Part shown: piece by piece, positions 15,792 to 23,065 of the stretch | How positions within the stretch are numbered: position 1 is the stretch's first letter | How the letters are laid out: the number at the start of each line of letters is the position of its first letter | Source: a virus | IMG/VR virus record: IMGVR_UViG_3300007609_000093 | Span: 1-23,065 of that record | DNA length: 23,065 nucleotides | Strand: one strand, 5' to 3' | Notes under the pieces: generated by a model | Database searches by the model: none | Seen by the model: the letters and a program-made list of their open reading frames with translations, nothing else | Told to the model about the DNA's origin: nothing | Program-made: the position numbers and the translations under genes

Positions 15792-18700
15792 ATGGCTGAA
15801 CAGCCTCCTAGCTCCGACAGGTTTAGCGATTACGTAAATCTTTATTATTCTCAGCTGACTGGCGGGCAGAAGCAGCCTACTGGTGAGCCTATAAAGTTTC
15901 CCGAGCTTCCGGCACCTAAGCAGGAGCTTGGTTTCTTGGGCCGCACTGTCGATATTTTGTCGCGTCCTATGCGTATTATTAGCAACCCGGCAATGAAAGC
16001 TGTCGAGCTTCCAGAGCGTATGGACAAAGTTCAAGAGCTTCGAGCGGCTGGTGATACAGAAGCTGCGACTAAGGAATCTTTGTCTGCTGTGGGTAGTTTG
16101 TTGGCGTCTCCGTTTACTGGTTTCTTTTCTGATGACCCGTCTAATAAACCGTATTGGTCTGACATTATTGAGCGCCAGGCTGATGTGGTTAATCGTAATG
16201 ACCCTAATTATGTTGATGTTGCTAATAACGTAAACCCTGTAACTAAGGGGGCACTTGGTTTTGTCGGGGATGTGGCTTTGGACCCGTTGTGGTTGGTGCC
16301 GGGGGGTTGGGCTGCCAAGGGAGCACTAACCGCCGCTAAAGAAGGGCCTAAGTTTACTAAGGGTGCTTTGCAAGCTATTGATGTTCCGGGCGCGGTAGCC
16401 CGTAAAGAAGTACCTGAAGCGGCGATGTTGCCGAGTATTACGGGTGCCCCTAGTTTGGGTGTGTCGGACAGCATTATGGCTCGTACCGCACCTAAATACA
16501 GTTTAACTGTCGACGGTAAGACGATGCCTCAGAAGTTTCCGACACGCGCTGCGGCTGAGGAAGCTGTTGAGAAGATGCGAGCTAAGAGCAAAAAGCCGTT
16601 GGTGGATATTGAAACGTTGCCGGATGGACGAGTTTTCCGGGGTTCTAAGGGTTACAAGATTGCTCCGTTAACTGTGGCTGATACTTTCCCGGCTGCCCAG
16701 GCCGCTCAGAAGGTGTCGGACGATTTGGTGGAGAACGCTGCTAAAGGGGCGGCTACCAGTAGTGAGACGGTTATCAAGTCTTTGCAAGAAATCATTGACG
16801 GCAAACAGATTGTTATTGGTGGTAAAGAGGTTGGGTTGAAGGGCGAACTCAACTCGTTCTTTAACTCGCTATCGAAGATGGTGTCTAAGCCCGCTAAGGC
16901 CGGTCAGGCTGCTAAGGCGGGTCGACCTAAGTCATATAAGGCGTGGGTGCCCGCGTTGAAGAGTGACCCCAATTTGTCGAAAGCACGTATTAAGATTCCT
17001 CAGGGCAGTGTGTTGGCGGGGCCGTTTGGTCGTGAGGCAACACTGGATAATGTGTTGAACGTTTATGAGAAGACTCGTAGTCCTGAGATTAAGCAGACTA
17101 TTGAGAAGTTGTTGTTGCAGCCTGCGTATGCGAAGTATAAGGCTGGTTTGACTGCTGGTAAGAGTGTTGACCTTATTGGTAATGCGGCTACTCCGACAGC
17201 TCTTATGGAGGAGGCTACTGAGGCTTCGGTTGCGGCGACTATTGTCCGTAATTTGAAGAACTTGGATGATGCGGAACGTGCTCGGGGTACGGCGTTGTTG
17301 GGCGAGGAGCTGTTTGCTAATTTGCAGACGTTTGGTCCTAAGGAGATGACTAAGTTCCTGGACGAGATGGATGTTATTTTGAAGCAGACTGGCGCGATTG
17401 ATGCGTTGGGTCCTGTGAGTGATGCTTCGTTGACGGGTCGTATGTTGGGGTTGTTTGGTATTGACCAGGCTACTCGGTTGGAGGCTGCTGCTACGGTTGC
17501 TCGTAATGTGCAGGATATTCCTCGGGCCACACCGGAGAGTACGTTAAAGGCTGCTGAGAATGTTAGTGAAAGTGTCCGTGTTGAAGAGGACATTATTCAG
17601 GGTCTAATTAATAACAATTATCCTGCGGATAAAATTAATTTGCGTGGTGGTAAGGGCCGTGAAAAGAGTTTGTTTGCGGCTATTTTGGAAACTCTTGAGA
17701 ACGTGCTTCCAGGTATTACTAAAAACAAGTTGGACCCTAGCCCTGACGTTTACCCTCATGTGTCGAAGACGGGTGTCAAAAACACTAAGCCTAGCTATGG
17801 TGCTGGTGTAGGCGTTGTGCCTAAGATTCCTAATACGTACTTTCAGTTTGATTTGTTTGTGAACATTGCTAAGCACATCGATAACAATTATTTCCGCTCT
17901 GTCGGGGACACCCCGGCTGTTTTGAAAGACCCGTCAGGCAAGCTTTTCCTGGGTGAGAAGTTGGCTCGTGAGAAAGAGCGTTTGGTGTTGACGGCTATGG
18001 AGGTGGCTGAAAAGTTTTACATTGGTCGCGGTATTCCGATGACTATGGATTTGGATGGTGTGTTTACTAATTTGCGGTTTACTCAGGCTTACCGCGAGGT
18101 AGCGGAACAGCTAAAGGTCCTGACTGGTTCGCCTAATGGTGACAGGTTTTTGACACTGGTTTTCTTTAACGGTCAGGGTGGTATGGCTCCGACACAGTTT
18201 ATGGAAGCCATTTCTAAGGTGTTGGCTGGCGGTACCCGTGAGGAAGTTAAGGCGTTACTGACGGCTAGTAAGTCTCGTGTTGGTAAGGATATTAAGAAGA
18301 TTAATTTCTTGGCTCGTGACAAAAGTGTTGCTCGCATGGGAGGCACTTCGTTTAAGAGTTCTACTGTGACAGATAATCTTACGGATGCAATTGTGGCGGC
18401 TGGAGATGACCTTGCCCGTGTTGCTAAGGAAAACGCAGACCAGTACTTAGGTAGAAGTATTGAAGAAGGTAAAGTTATTGCCGCCGCAGTATCCGATGTG
18501 ATTCTGTCATTGATGAACAGCCCTACAGAGTTTGCTACTGCTATTCGTGCTGTGGCTTACTCGGGTCAGATTGTGCAGGATTTTGCTAAGCCGATGAATG
18601 CTACCCAGTTGGGTACTACGATTGCGGCGGGTACTGTGAAGTCTGGTTTGGGTGACGAGATTACTAAGAACGCTAAGCTCGTGGATGATGTGGTTCAGGC

Positions 18701-21188
18701 TTCCACTAAGAATGACACAAAGGCTACTGCTAAGGCTTTGGCTGACCTGTCGGATGATGCTGCTGAGACTTCTAAGAAGATGATGTATGACGGTTACCGT
18801 GTGGCTGAGGATATGCGGGATGGTCGTAGCCCTTACCGTGACGAGTATTTCCAGGATGTACTGGATGAGTTTGAGTTGGGTTCGGTTCGTACTCCCGACA
18901 GGATTGCTACTGAGGGACGCGGCACTGTTGTGTCAATGGCGTTAAAGATTATGGACCCTACCCGCAGATTCTTTGACGCAAAAGCTGGTATGCATACTCG
19001 TGAAATGTTGTGGGGTTCTAGGCTTTTCTTTGGCAGTGGGAACAAAATGGCGCTACTAAGTAAGCCTTTCCTTAAAAGCCTCAAAAACATTATGCGTAAC
19101 GATGATTATGCTAAGCCACTTGTTGAGGGTGGTAAAGAGAGTGTGCTTCAGCGGGCTTTTAAGAATGTGCAGGCTGGTACTAAGTCTCCTGAGGGCACAG
19201 CGTTGCGTAAAGCTGAGGATGATTTGCGCCCAATGATGGCTCAGTTCTTTGACCAAAGTGATACCCTGCAAAACATTTTGTTGGGTAATGCTTTCTTCCG
19301 TACCGGCGCGGGACGCGAAGCCATTAACTCGGTGCTGGACTACAACGCAGTGTTAGGTAAGTCCGGCAGTGTGTCTAAGACGCCGCCGTCTGGTGTTTTC
19401 TTTGACGAGGACTTGGCTGTGAAAACGGCTACTGCCAGGGCTGTAGAAAATGGGCGTAAAGTACCTACACCTGAAGAGATTAACCAGGAGCTGTTTAATC
19501 AGTGGAAGACCTGGGATGTTGAAGACCCTATTGGTTTTATGTACGCCATTAACCGGGCTATGGTGCAGCTGTCGTCTGAGGTGTCGTTTGTTACCTCGTT
19601 TAAACAAAAGGCTATGGAATTAAGTCTTGCCAGCACTAAACCCCAGTCTGGTTTTGTAAAAATTGTTCCGGGCGAGAAGAGTAGGTACGGTAAGTTCCTG
19701 GGCGACGAGCCCCTGTACATGGACAAAGACGTGGCTGAAATGTTTAACGCCATCGACAACTTCGCCAGCTCCAGTAAGCAGTTTGAGGGTGGGTTTGGGC
19801 GTTTAACCCGCACCGTTATTGACCCGGTAACCGACACATGGAAATACGCTATTACGCTGCCCCGTCCCGGTCACCACATCCGTAACATGGTGGGTGACTT
19901 GACGTTGACGTTCTTGGCGGAGGGAACCATTGGTAGTGTTGCGGCTTCTACCAAGGCTTGGCAGATGATGGCTTTCCGTGGAAGTTACTCGGACATTGAC
20001 ATGGCTAAGGCTTTGACCCGTAACGGAATTACCGATATTCCGAAAAACGGCACTGTCATATCTAGTGGTGAACTGGGTTCTTTTACTGCCGAGGAAATTT
20101 TTGACAAACTATTCTTGGGTAAGGGTATTCTGATTCCTGCCCGCCAGCGTGAAGGTTTGATGAACCGACAGGGGTTCACAAATGATGCGGGGCTGTTGGA
20201 TGACGACCTGGTGTCTAACACTTTAAGTCGTACATTGGAGACGGCTGCTGGTGTTGTGAACCCGTTGGCTCTTCGTGGCGGAAAAATTGAGGATGCGGTT
20301 CTTAACTTTGCTGAAGGCCGTGACGCTTACGTGCGTATCCAACACGCTATGCAAATGCTGGAGAAAGCCCAGAAGGGCATGAAGTTGACTCGTGGTTATG
20401 GCACCACAGTTGACCCTAAGAAAATTTCGCAAGACGAGTTGTTTGATGTGATTGCGGAGCGCGTGTCGAAGTATCACCCTGACATGGCTACGTTGTCGAT
20501 TCAGGAAAAGAAGTACCTGCGTCGTATTATGCCGTTTTATCACTGGAACCGTGGTGCTATTCAGGCGGTAAGTGAGACGTTGTTGATGAACCCTGGTCGT
20601 GTGGTGGCTTTGAACAAGGCTTCGTATAACATTGCGGTGGCTGCTGGTATTAATCCTGACTCGTTGTATGACCCGTTCCCTGATGACCAGTTGTTCCCCA
20701 GCTTTCTCCAGGACCAGATGGAAGGCCCGTTGTTTGAGGCTGATGGTAGGTATTATGGGTTCCGGCCAGGTATTGCATCATTCGATGTGATGAACCAGTT
20801 TGCAAGCGGTAACCCCATCGACACAGTGCTGGACAACGCTAACCCGTTGTTTAAGATTCCAATTGAGCTGATGACTGGTACGCGTCTGGGCACGCAGTCT
20901 CGTATTCGTGATTACAGTGACTACATTGACTCCAACATTCCTGGCTTAAACTATGCGGCTAACATTTCAGGTCAGAGTGTCACAGGTTCGTTGTACAGTT
21001 TGCTTACCCGTGGTGGAATGGACCCGCAGTACCAGTTCGAACTGGGTAATAAGGATTCTAACGACCAACTTATCTCCGCACTTAACTGGTTGACGGGTAT
21101 TGGTTTGACGGATTACAGCCGCCCCAGTTACATTAGATTTGCAGAGATTGAGCAGCAGCAAGAGAACCGCGAAGACAGAGGCTTTTAA
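15792..21188 (+). CDS. Giant (1798-residue) internal virion protein
   Basis: This is by far the largest gene in the window. The N-terminus has VGDVALDPLWLVPGG near residue 156, a hydrophobic, glycine-containing stretch. The middle is mostly charged helix. Near residue 1355 is LPRPGHHIRNMVGDLTLTFL, and near 1580 is MPFYHWNRGAIQAVSE; both are patterns I have seen in giant phage internal or polyvalent proteins. Size, place after the nozzle and minor proteins, and lack of tape-measure features fit the largest DNA-ejection protein (T7 gp16 position). I looked for transglycosylase (E-S active site), M23, protease and single-subunit RNA polymerase motifs and saw none. GGGAG lies before the ATG. Confidence 0.8.
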   Translation: MAEQPPSSDRFSDYVNLYYSQLTGGQKQPTGEPIKFPELPAPKQELGFLGRTVDILSRPMRIISNPAMKAVELPERMDKVQELRAAGDTEAATKESLSAVGSLLASPFTGFFSDDPSNKPYWSDIIERQADVVNRNDPNYVDVANNVNPVTKGALGFVGDVALDPLWLVPGGWAAKGALTAAKEGPKFTKGALQAIDVPGAVARKEVPEAAMLPSITGAPSLGVSDSIMARTAPKYSLTVDGKTMPQKFPTRAAAEEAVEKMRAKSKKPLVDIETLPDGRVFRGSKGYKIAPLTVADTFPAAQAAQKVSDDLVENAAKGAATSSETVIKSLQEIIDGKQIVIGGKEVGLKGELNSFFNSLSKMVSKPAKAGQAAKAGRPKSYKAWVPALKSDPNLSKARIKIPQGSVLAGPFGREATLDNVLNVYEKTRSPEIKQTIEKLLLQPAYAKYKAGLTAGKSVDLIGNAATPTALMEEATEASVAATIVRNLKNLDDAERARGTALLGEELFANLQTFGPKEMTKFLDEMDVILKQTGAIDALGPVSDASLTGRMLGLFGIDQATRLEAAATVARNVQDIPRATPESTLKAAENVSESVRVEEDIIQGLINNNYPADKINLRGGKGREKSLFAAILETLENVLPGITKNKLDPSPDVYPHVSKTGVKNTKPSYGAGVGVVPKIPNTYFQFDLFVNIAKHIDNNYFRSVGDTPAVLKDPSGKLFLGEKLAREKERLVLTAMEVAEKFYIGRGIPMTMDLDGVFTNLRFTQAYREVAEQLKVLTGSPNGDRFLTLVFFNGQGGMAPTQFMEAISKVLAGGTREEVKALLTASKSRVGKDIKKINFLARDKSVARMGGTSFKSSTVTDNLTDAIVAAGDDLARVAKENADQYLGRSIEEGKVIAAAVSDVILSLMNSPTEFATAIRAVAYSGQIVQDFAKPMNATQLGTTIAAGTVKSGLGDEITKNAKLVDDVVQASTKNDTKATAKALADLSDDAAETSKKMMYDGYRVAEDMRDGRSPYRDEYFQDVLDEFELGSVRTPDRIATEGRGTVVSMALKIMDPTRRFFDAKAGMHTREMLWGSRLFFGSGNKMALLSKPFLKSLKNIMRNDDYAKPLVEGGKESVLQRAFKNVQAGTKSPEGTALRKAEDDLRPMMAQFFDQSDTLQNILLGNAFFRTGAGREAINSVLDYNAVLGKSGSVSKTPPSGVFFDEDLAVKTATARAVENGRKVPTPEEINQELFNQWKTWDVEDPIGFMYAINRAMVQLSSEVSFVTSFKQKAMELSLASTKPQSGFVKIVPGEKSRYGKFLGDEPLYMDKDVAEMFNAIDNFASSSKQFEGGFGRLTRTVIDPVTDTWKYAITLPRPGHHIRNMVGDLTLTFLAEGTIGSVAASTKAWQMMAFRGSYSDIDMAKALTRNGITDIPKNGTVISSGELGSFTAEEIFDKLFLGKGILIPARQREGLMNRQGFTNDAGLLDDDLVSNTLSRTLETAAGVVNPLALRGGKIEDAVLNFAEGRDAYVRIQHAMQMLEKAQKGMKLTRGYGTTVDPKKISQDELFDVIAERVSKYHPDMATLSIQEKKYLRRIMPFYHWNRGAIQAVSETLLMNPGRVVALNKASYNIAVAAGINPDSLYDPFPDDQLFPSFLQDQMEGPLFEADGRYYGFRPGIASFDVMNQFASGNPIDTVLDNANPLFKIPIELMTGTRLGTQSRIRDYSDYIDSNIPGLNYAANISGQSVTGSLYSLLTRGGMDPQYQFELGNKDSNDQLISALNWLTGIGLTDYSRPSYIRFAEIEQQQENREDRGF

Positions 21189-21472: not shown

Positions 21473-21500
21473 TCCCCCAGTTAGGACGGTAACTGGGGGA
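21473..21500. terminator. Hairpin between convergent transcription blocks
   Basis: A perfect 11-bp inverted repeat, TCCCCCAGTTA (21473-21483) with TAACTGGGGGA (21490-21500), encloses a six-base loop. It sits 8 nt after the plus-strand stop and 13 nt after the minus-strand resolvase stop. There is no real T run on either side, so it may need a factor, act as a transcript-end stabiliser, or terminate weakly. The position supports a two-way role. Confidence 0.6.
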
Positions 21501-21513
21501 ACAATAAAGCTTA

Positions 21514-21927
21514 TCACAGCGGTTTAGGGGCTAAAAGGCCTTTAGTTTCGAAGTAATAGTAGCCGTGGTTGTAGGCGTCTATGTCGTGGGATTTGCTGTG
21601 GTTGCTGGGGCGTTTAACCCCACTGTGCAGGGCTGCCACGGTAAGGACGTTGGCGGGTTGTAGAACAAACTTTGCTCCGATGCGTTGCGCCATTGATTTA
21701 AGGGCACCAATGATTTGGACGGCTATAAATCGTGACCCTGTTTGCACCATTTGTTTACCCTGTCGAAGCCTGTAATCTTCGCACACGATTGTTTTAATGG
21801 GTTGGTTGGTGGTGGCAGTAAATTTTAGTATGTCGTCTAGGTCATAGGTGGTGCGGCTAATAAAAGTACCGTCGTCTTCCCAGAAGGCTATGCCGCTGGT
21901 TTCTCCGGGGTCGACGCTTATGACCAT
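21514..21927 (-). CDS. RuvC-like Holliday-junction resolvase / RNase H-fold nuclease
   Basis: The 137-residue protein opens with VISVDPGETSGIAFW (D6, the first catalytic aspartate of the RuvC/RNase H fold). It has TIVCEDYRL (E50) and ends with KSHDIDAYNHGYYYF (D115 and D117). This order of acidic residues fits phage RuvC-like endonucleases that cut branched DNA, clearing recombination or replication intermediates before packaging. The length is slightly below bacterial RuvC and normal for phage versions. It is transcribed after the polymerase and micro-gene, overlapping the latter by 10 nt. Its ribosome site is weak (GGA only), which suggests coupling to upstream translation. It meets the structural block tail to tail. 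Confidence 0.84.
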   Translation of the reverse strand: MVISVDPGETSGIAFWEDDGTFISRTTYDLDDILKFTATTNQPIKTIVCEDYRLRQGKQMVQTGSRFIAVQIIGALKSMAQRIGAKFVLQPANVLTVAALHSGVKRPSNHSKSHDIDAYNHGYYYFETKGLLAPKPL

Positions 21928-22016
21928 AAGTTTTGTCCGTTATCTACGCAGTGTGTTTCTGCTAGCTCCGCATCACTGTCCATGTATTGGCAGTGGGGGC
22001 ATTCATAGATAATCAT
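21918..22016 (-). CDS. Micro-gene: 32-residue zinc-finger-like peptide between polymerase and resolvase
   Basis: The frame runs from the ATG at 22016-22014 to the TAA at 21920-21918. The peptide starts MIIYECPHCQYM and contains a further HC pair (H22, C23), so C6, C9, H22 and C23 could bind one zinc. A consensus AGGAGG (22024-22029) lies 7 nt upstream. The start overlaps the polymerase stop (ATGA) and the stop overlaps the resolvase start by 10 nt. These linked junctions make it very likely to be a real gene. Function is unknown; nucleic-acid or protein binding is inference. Confidence 0.72.
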   Translation of the reverse strand: MIIYECPHCQYMDSDAELAETHCVDNGQNLWS

Positions 22017-23065
22017 TTCCCGTCCTCCTCTGGAACCCAGTTATCTACCTCTACAGCAAATCGAACATCGAAGTTAACATCACCTGTTACGGCGTTAACG
22101 TCTTCCATTAATGTTCGTATCTTTTCTATGTATTGGGGTACTACGGATTCCTTAACCTCAAATGTAATCGAGTCGTGGACTTGTAGCAACATACGACACT
22201 CCGGTCCTTCGAGTTCTTGGAAACATTTGACCATGATGCGTTCTACGATGTCGGCCCCTCCGCCTTGGATGAGGCTGTTCATGGCTTTGTAGGCTTCGTT
22301 GCGGTTTTCGAAGTGTCGTTTCCTGCCGCTCCAGATGAGGATTTCGCCTGTCTCTTCGACTTTGGCTGTGCATCGTTCGTTGAGCCTGCGGAAGTGGGGG
22401 TAGGTGTTGAAATAGTTTTGCCGTATTTGTTTGGCGGTTGCTTTGTCGACACCAAAGGCGTTCATCAGGCGTTGTTCTCCGGCACCGTATTGCATGGAGT
22501 AGACGAGGGTTTTGGTGTCGTGCCGGGACATGCCCAGCTGTTTGGACATCTCGGTGAAGATGTCACGCCCCTCGTTGAATACCTCTTTGAGTTCTTCTTC
22601 CCCAGCGTATGCGGTTGCGAGCCGTAATTCGAGCTGGGAGAAGTCGGCGTTGATGAGAATGTATCCGTCTTCTGGGATAAAGCACTCTTTAACTTTACCG
22701 TTCCATTCTTTGTCGGAACTTTTCGGAATTTGCTGCAAATTGGGTTCGGCGCAAGAAAGTCGGCCCGTAGCAGTCCCGTGGAGGCGATAACTGCACCTAA
22801 GTCGACCATCGACATCAACTAGGTCAAGATAGGGCCTGTATGAGGCGCTGACGGCTTTTTGCCACCCCCGAAACTCCTTTATGAGCTTCGCAACCGGGTT
22901 TTCTAGCTGTTCGAGCATCGAATCATACGCTAACATGGCTTCTTTATCGAAACTCGGAGCACCAGTCTTCGTACTTTGCTTTACAACCGGCAGCCCGAGG
23001 TCATCAATTAAAAGTTTTTTCATTTGTTTAGGGCTTGCAGGATTAATGCCCAGCTCTTTTTCTAT
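22013..23065 (-). CDS. Family A DNA polymerase, polymerase domain (5' end outside window)
   Basis: 350 residues are visible and the frame is open to the window edge, so the N-terminal part is missing. INPASPKQ and then STKTGAPSFD match the thumb-region pattern of family A enzymes. Palm and fingers motifs follow: GTATGRLSCAEPNLQQIP; motif A INADFSQLELR; motif B with RHDTKTLVYSMQYGAG; motif C LLQVHDSITFEV. Numbering from the internal ATG at 23023, the metal-binding aspartates are D127 and D284. The fingers residue that is Phe in E. coli Pol I is Tyr here (Y175), as in T7 polymerase. It copies the phage genome. Whether a 3'-5' exonuclease domain is present cannot be seen. The micro-gene overlaps its stop. 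Confidence 0.95.
   Translation of the reverse strand: MEKELGINPASPKQMKKLLIDDLGLPVVKQSTKTGAPSFDKEAMLAYDSMLEQLENPVAKLIKEFRGWQKAVSASYRPYLDLVDVDGRLRCSYRLHGTATGRLSCAEPNLQQIPKSSDKEWNGKVKECFIPEDGYILINADFSQLELRLATAYAGEEELKEVFNEGRDIFTEMSKQLGMSRHDTKTLVYSMQYGAGEQRLMNAFGVDKATAKQIRQNYFNTYPHFRRLNERCTAKVEETGEILIWSGRKRHFENRNEAYKAMNSLIQGGGADIVERIMVKCFQELEGPECRMLLQVHDSITFEVKESVVPQYIEKIRTLMEDVNAVTGDVNFDVRFAVEVDNWVPEEDGK

Follow-up and report, generated by a model that had tools for sequence, protein, structure and literature searches.

An acidic microprotein gene with a predicted metal site between the polymerase and resolvase genes of a clade of uncultured phages

The short open reading frame at positions 21918-22016 (minus strand) of the DNA stretch analysed here (the window, a linear virus record of 23,065 bases) is a microgene found in a clade of uncultured phages, distant relatives of the actinobacterial podovirus Jasmine. 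It defines a new family of microproteins within a generally known class, the small phage proteins, and is placed at the junction between the genes for a DNA polymerase and a RuvC-fold nuclease.

Genomic context of the micro-ORF

Pfam and PHROG searches indicate that the window encodes a P22-type portal, an SU10-type capsid protein, a family A DNA polymerase and an endolysin. Among the matches listed from the phage collection, the closest relatives of its polymerase, at 45-51% identity, are those of Arthrobacter phage Jasmine and its kin, Microbacterium phage Shocker and Cellulosimicrobium phage DS1, so that the window phage is likely to be a podovirus with an actinobacterial host. On the plus strand it additionally encodes a 1798-aa protein (15792-21188), with a C-terminus resembling phrog_36598 and no Pfam match at E 1, to which a protein of similar size and place corresponds in Jasmine, and a predicted exonuclease of the RNase_H_2 type (1229-1963), the C-terminal CxxC...CxxC stretch of which resembles a zinc ribbon.

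The locus under consideration lies on the minus strand, in the order polymerase, micro-ORF, resolvase and a terminator-like inverted repeat that faces the plus-strand genes. The polymerase gene (22013-23065; Pfam DNA_pol_A, E=3.4e-76; phrog_17, E=2.3e-82) has its 5' end beyond the window edge. The Holliday junction resolvase (21514-21927, 137 aa; phrog_1770, E=3.8e-8) is a RuvC-fold nuclease, as indicated by the PHROG match, the conserved acidic residues and fold comparison: in an alignment of 23 sequences D6 and E50 are invariant, with H114 and D117 present in at least 90%, and the AlphaFold2 (AF2) model of the window protein (pLDDT 89.4) retrieves RuvC as its best Foldseek matches (E=4.5e-6). 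The inverted repeat CCCCCAGTTA-6-TAACTGGGGG (21474-21499), read by eye from the sequence, separates the resolvase from the convergent plus-strand genes.

The micro-ORF itself (ATG at 22016-22014, end at 21918) encodes an acidic peptide of 32 aa, MIIYECPHCQYMDSDAELAETHCVDNGQNLWS, with the pattern CxxC-x12-HC-x-D. The expression signals described in an earlier note on this DNA are all present in the sequence: an AGGAGG Shine-Dalgarno element (22029-22024; duplex energy -12.0 kcal/mol) 7 nt upstream of the ATG and within the 3' end of the polymerase gene, an ATGA overlap between the polymerase stop and the micro-ORF start, and a 10-nt overlap with the resolvase, the ATG of which lies at 21927. 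This resolvase start, inferred by alignment, is thus inside the micro-ORF, and its own Shine-Dalgarno element is weak (-3.2 kcal/mol).

Phyletic distribution and gene loss

A scan of the viral_contigs collection with the window polymerase yielded 31 loci, in 26 of which the polymerase-resolvase junction is visible (L009, L014, L022, L030 and L031 end before it). Comparison of this gap across related phages, as the earlier note had proposed, recovers the micro-ORF in 17 of the 26 junctions (L001-L004, L006-L008, L010-L013 and L015-L020). It is absent from L005, L021, L023, L024 and L025, the resolvase starting there right at the polymerase stop, and other ORFs take its place in L026-L029; L021, L023, L024 and L025, along with L086, constitute the bare junctions of a sister clade. 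When the 31 records were searched in full with a profile, each carrier gave one convincing copy, always before the resolvase, and there was no convincing copy, intact or degraded, in the 14 other records or elsewhere in the carriers. The sole row among the 14 non-carriers (L029, E 0.06) spans 7 residues within a long frame and a second row in the carrier L019 (E 0.39) spans 6 residues. Decay of the frame or of its Cys and His residues in close relatives, which the earlier note had named as evidence that would speak against the gene, is not seen among these records, 17 of the 31 having intact copies; what does occur is the clean absence of the whole gene from L005, at 90% polymerase identity.

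Beyond these loci, a pattern scan of viral_contigs returned 21 stretches, namely the 17 carriers and four others that were rejected, two being interrupted by stops and two lying within one unrelated ORF. A profile-guided scan recovered 16 of the 17 carriers and no new micro-ORF beyond them. No homologue outside the clade was detected in the phage collection by tblastn at E 10; genome_contigs, scanned with a somewhat stricter pattern than viral_contigs, gave no match to the micro-ORF, and no polymerase relative was present among its 34 candidate stretches. Likewise, there is no match at 0.001 in PHROGs, Pfam, NCBIfam or PADLOC, and we found no description of the micro-ORF in the open-licence PMC literature.

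The carriers fall in a single 17-row set (support 95/90) of a 33-row polymerase tree; the set also includes L005 and L009, a locus with no visible junction. With L009 treated as lacking the micro-ORF, its presence needs 3 changes on this tree as against 11.3 with shuffled labels. L005 is nested within a 12-row set with 100/99 support, and its absence therefore looks like gene loss. The DNA alignment indicates that this loss was precise, with the ATG that overlaps the polymerase now being the resolvase ATG. Since L005 has retained a resolvase of similar length (70% identical to that of the window), the peptide is dispensable there.

The earlier note had also pointed to a second tiny Cys-containing peptide on the minus strand (1100-1180), which proves to be conserved, 8 of the 21 related records searched containing a match. 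It is 26 aa long with one CxxC and one further Cys; the matches are 44-100% identical (the 100% match being partial) and occur also in records without the polymerase-resolvase micro-ORF. The 48.9-kb record of L005 (G005) holds two copies of this peptide as well as matches to an FmdB-type zinc ribbon profile at 39-203 and 42232-42396, and this double occurrence suggests terminal redundancy or duplication.

The micro-ORF is a protein-coding gene

The micro-ORF is under protein-level purifying selection in one frame. Across 14 distinct 22-codon cores lying outside the resolvase overlap, the pooled pN/pS is 0.270 in frame, a value biased favourably by the core-extraction pattern, which fixes seven codons, as against 1.231 and 1.206 in the shifted frames; all 17 carriers were matched by this pattern, and the sample therefore misses none of them. 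In the same cores 10, 11 and 21 of the 22 columns vary at codon positions 1, 2 and 3, respectively, and stops interrupt the two shifted frames in 8 and 13 of the 14 cores. Furthermore, the window has 71 ATG-started ORFs of 25-60 aa, counting both strands, and in no other of these does the Shine-Dalgarno duplex reach -10 kcal/mol. This unique initiation signal, the in-frame constraint and the nine invariant residues described below rule out a chance ORF. Hence, the earlier reading of a real gene overlapping both its neighbours is borne out by conservation in relatives and by selection in frame, and we regard its protein-coding nature as virtually certain.

Conserved residues, predicted metal site and fold

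The family members are 31-35 aa in length. The 13 aligned variants (that of the window and 12 typed ones, covering all 17 carriers) share nine invariant residues, C6, C9, Y11, D13, A19, H22, C23, D25 and W31, of which W31 lies within the resolvase-start overlap, where the other frame accounts for part of its conservation. Net charges range from -4 to -7 across the 13, and this acidic character argues against DNA binding and in favor of protein contact.

The C6, C9, H22, C23 pattern flagged in the earlier note is present in the window peptide and invariant across the alignment. As a zinc-binding set it survives in part: the conserved Cys and His residues fit one metal site, but D25 is just as invariant as C23, and the adjacent H22-C23 is an awkward ligand pair for one tetrahedral ion. 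Judging from the conserved pattern, we consider a single metal site highly probable, with zinc as the likeliest ion by analogy, and the ligands would probably be the CxxC knuckle together with H22 and either C23 or D25.

The weakly supported AlphaFold2 model predicts a small hairpin followed by a helix (β-β-α; mean pLDDT 77, pTM 0.39). Most of the closest solved structures listed are C2H2/UBZ fingers, at non-significant scores (Foldseek best E 0.77, VIA best Z 2.7), and searches of pdb and BFVD gave no structure match at E 0.001. The similarity to C2H2/C2HC fingers (including UBZ), though below significance, extends to the C-x2-C-x12-H spacing, the predicted hairpin plus helix and an aromatic residue two positions before the first Cys. 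The classical C2H2 pattern comprises C-x2-4-C-x12-H with a fourth His or Cys 4-6 residues after the first His. The first part of this spacing is present throughout, with C6, C9 and H22 invariant in 13/13, but none of the 13 has a His or Cys at positions 26-28 (window numbering), which rules out a classical C2H2 finger. In place of the fourth ligand the family displays the invariant C23 (H+1) and D25 (H+3), and, again unlike these fingers, it is a single, strongly acidic protein of 31-35 aa. Two further similarities were discarded: a TnpB-like PDB sequence match (9b0l, E 0.096) is short, and a match of one of the 13 variants to the Lar anti-restriction protein (E 0.03) is too weak.

Initiation signals and probable translational coupling to the resolvase

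We compared start signals in 18 sequences (the window and the 17 carriers, with near-duplicates kept separate and resolvase starts assigned by pattern and alignment). The micro-ORF Shine-Dalgarno duplexes have a median of -10.3 kcal/mol (range -4.5 to -12.1), as against -2.9 kcal/mol for the resolvase starts in the same sequences; in seven relatives without the micro-ORF those of the resolvase reach -6.0 to -7.4 kcal/mol. The resolvase start codons of the carriers are 11 ATG, 6 GTG and 1 TTG, whereas all seven non-carriers have ATG. Given this combination of a strong micro-ORF start and a weak resolvase start in most carriers, it is probable that the micro-ORF relays ribosomes to the resolvase by reinitiation. 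Two carriers do not fit and count against such a relay, in that the resolvase element is slightly stronger than that of the micro-ORF in both L012 (-6.1 vs -5.9 kcal/mol) and L020 (-5.4 vs -4.5 kcal/mol); in L010 and L013 the micro-ORF element is likewise merely -5.9 kcal/mol.

The micro-ORF overlaps the resolvase start in all 18 sequences, by 7 nt in 13, 10 nt in four and 16 nt in one. According to PMC10666635, translational coupling requires overlap or a very short distance between genes, coupled pairs often encode subunits of one complex, and among overlapping or closely spaced pairs those for subunits of heteromeric complexes are over-represented (4.5-fold in E. coli and 8.1-fold in H. volcanii). 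The 13 overlaps of 7 nt fall within the band of -8 to +10 nt used in that paper; the four of 10 nt, including that of the window, and the one of 16 nt fall outside it, which likewise counts against a relay. The termination-reinitiation pairs treated in PMC6728339 and PMC10666635 resemble the present pair in that the upstream stop overlaps the downstream start and the downstream start is usually weak, a likeness suggestive of a heteromeric pair. The differences are that the upstream member here is only 31-35 codons long and that the overlaps are of 7, 10 or 16 nt as opposed to the common 4 or 1 nt.

The connection to the other neighbor is looser. The ATGA overlap with the polymerase is present in 10 of the 18 sequences, and a different ORF separates the two genes in L010 (4050-4316, 88 aa) and L012 (4053-4241, 62 aa). 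Thus, with these intruders on the polymerase side and no copies away from the resolvase, the stable association of the micro-ORF is with the resolvase and not the polymerase. The position that the earlier note had described holds for both sides in the window, but on the polymerase side the contact is broken in L010 and L012.

Proposed function and alternatives

Based on these observations, we propose that the 31-35 aa acidic peptide would fold around one metal ion, likely zinc. Ribosomes would load at the Shine-Dalgarno element close to the polymerase end, translate the peptide, stop just within the resolvase gene and reinitiate there. By such a relay via the micro-ORF the peptide would be made just ahead of, and in step with, the RuvC-fold resolvase, and may serve as its accessory or restraining partner through protein contact rather than DNA binding. 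That the resolvase is the working partner, which position and expression signals suggest, we rate at just under an even chance. The scheme as a whole, i.e. a metal-clamped peptide, a ribosome relay and an accessory or restraining resolvase partner, in which the metal, the relay in vivo, the partner and the sign of the effect are all inferred, is tentative and somewhat short of even.

The polymerase-resolvase slot in a wider group of phages has a bearing on the alternatives. Profile searches for resolvases and for polymerases (the best 80 of 557 polymerase relatives), combined with the earlier loci, give at least 75 distinct junctions with a resolvase. We counted 46 of these with gaps of 60-900 nt, leaving out 14 micro-ORF junctions, eight gaps below 20 nt, six above 900 nt and one of 39 nt. 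A small ORF with a CxxC motif is found on the coding strand in 27 of the 46 as against 7 of the 46 on the antisense strand (Fisher P 2.8e-5, kinship uncorrected), and ORFs with two or more CxxC motifs in 10 junctions as against none. Relative to an equal stretch downstream of the resolvase, the slot has a CxxC ORF in 27/45 as against 14/45 cases (P 0.011, again uncorrected for kinship). As the ORFs are mechanical and the phages related, these P values overstate independence; the enrichment in the slot is suggestive, and the downstream control is only modestly exceeded. The 35 CxxC ORFs of the slot form 19 groups by similarity, which include FmdB ribbons and, from the sequence read by eye, an HNH-looking pair; some of the ORFs are clearly mechanical. 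In four annotated phage genomes, 12 of the 114 small CDSs (140 aa or less, selected by hand) contain a CxxC, and two of these 12 lie in the slot.

This crowding by many unrelated small ORFs, with 19 groups of CxxC ORFs alone, along with the clean absence of the gene from L005 and the sister clade, would fit a slot that is a landing place for cargo genes, in which case the peptide would be a host-directed accessory binding a host RNA polymerase, nuclease or defence protein rather than a phage protein. We consider this unlikely, if still worth entertaining: no copy is found away from the resolvase in the 31 records, and the weak resolvase start signals of most carriers tie the two genes together. 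PADLOC, a library of defence and not anti-defence proteins, contains no match to the micro-ORF at E 1.

The slot also contains zinc ribbons that raise the question of origin. In the sister clade a 57-aa FmdB-type ribbon (L089:2331-2504) fills the micro-ORF slot and overlaps both neighbors, while near relatives of L089 have an empty junction; similar ribbons lie between polymerase and resolvase in the outgroups L026, L027/L029, L100, L101 and L102. Of four slot ribbons tested, two exceed the Pfam Zn_ribbon_8 cutoff, with those of L089 and L026 just below it. Like the micro-ORF product, the FmdB ribbon (PF09723, TIGR02605) is a small CxxC protein, and hhalign aligns the two over the first 13 columns (probability 69.9, pairwise E 4.1e-5). 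Two of the 13 variants match Zn_ribbon_8 (best E 0.0037 and 0.017), by their E-values presumably below the curated cutoff, and that of the window has no match to Zn_ribbon_8 or TIGR02605 at E 1. Descent of the micro-ORF from an FmdB ribbon, or the reverse, is possible, and its specific form, with the ribbon as the earlier occupant of the slot and the micro-ORF as its remnant, reduced to one knuckle and an HC pair, we regard as improbable: the alignment ends after the first knuckle, such a knuckle is generic for zinc ribbons, and L006 and L010 carry the micro-ORF plus a separate FmdB-type profile match elsewhere. The peptide is about half as long as an FmdB ribbon, and identity with that family is rejected, as the second CxxC is absent from 13/13 variants and the score required by the curated model is not reached.

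A partnership with the DNA polymerase or replisome, in line with the action on replication proteins that the earlier note had suggested, is a poor prospect, although the frequent ATGA overlap and the placement of the Shine-Dalgarno element within the polymerase gene might speak for it: when another ORF intervenes, as in L010 and L012, the micro-ORF stays next to the resolvase, and the polymerase fragment, with a pI of 5.4, is acidic as well. We give a similarly low probability to the more general idea that the slot is a recurrent control site at which unrelated small zinc-type proteins (the present peptide, FmdB-type ribbons and other CxxC peptides) are produced immediately ahead of the nuclease and restrain it or set its specificity. 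Finally, that the micro-ORF is a translational relay only, with an inert peptide, accords with the strong start signals before and weak ones after it in most carriers but is scarcely credible given the nine invariant residues, the pN/pS of 0.27 and an L005 resolvase that starts directly at the polymerase end.

Significance

Sub-100-aa genes have reportedly been predicted in bulk from phage genomes by Fremin et al. in 2022, and the micro-ORF is comparable to those as a small phage gene of unknown function. It represents an unannotated family of microproteins of 31-35 aa with a metal-site signature and no significant match in four libraries. As such, it is open to testing as an example of a very short ORF that seemingly both encodes a conserved protein and hands ribosomes on to a nuclease gene. 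As natural controls, the clade offers junctions with the micro-ORF, the precise loss in L005, the L089 ribbon at the corresponding place and bare junctions. Were the slot idea to hold, regulators of phage Holliday junction resolvases could be found by position alone, and the peptide, at 32 aa, would count as an exceptionally small partner of a nuclease.
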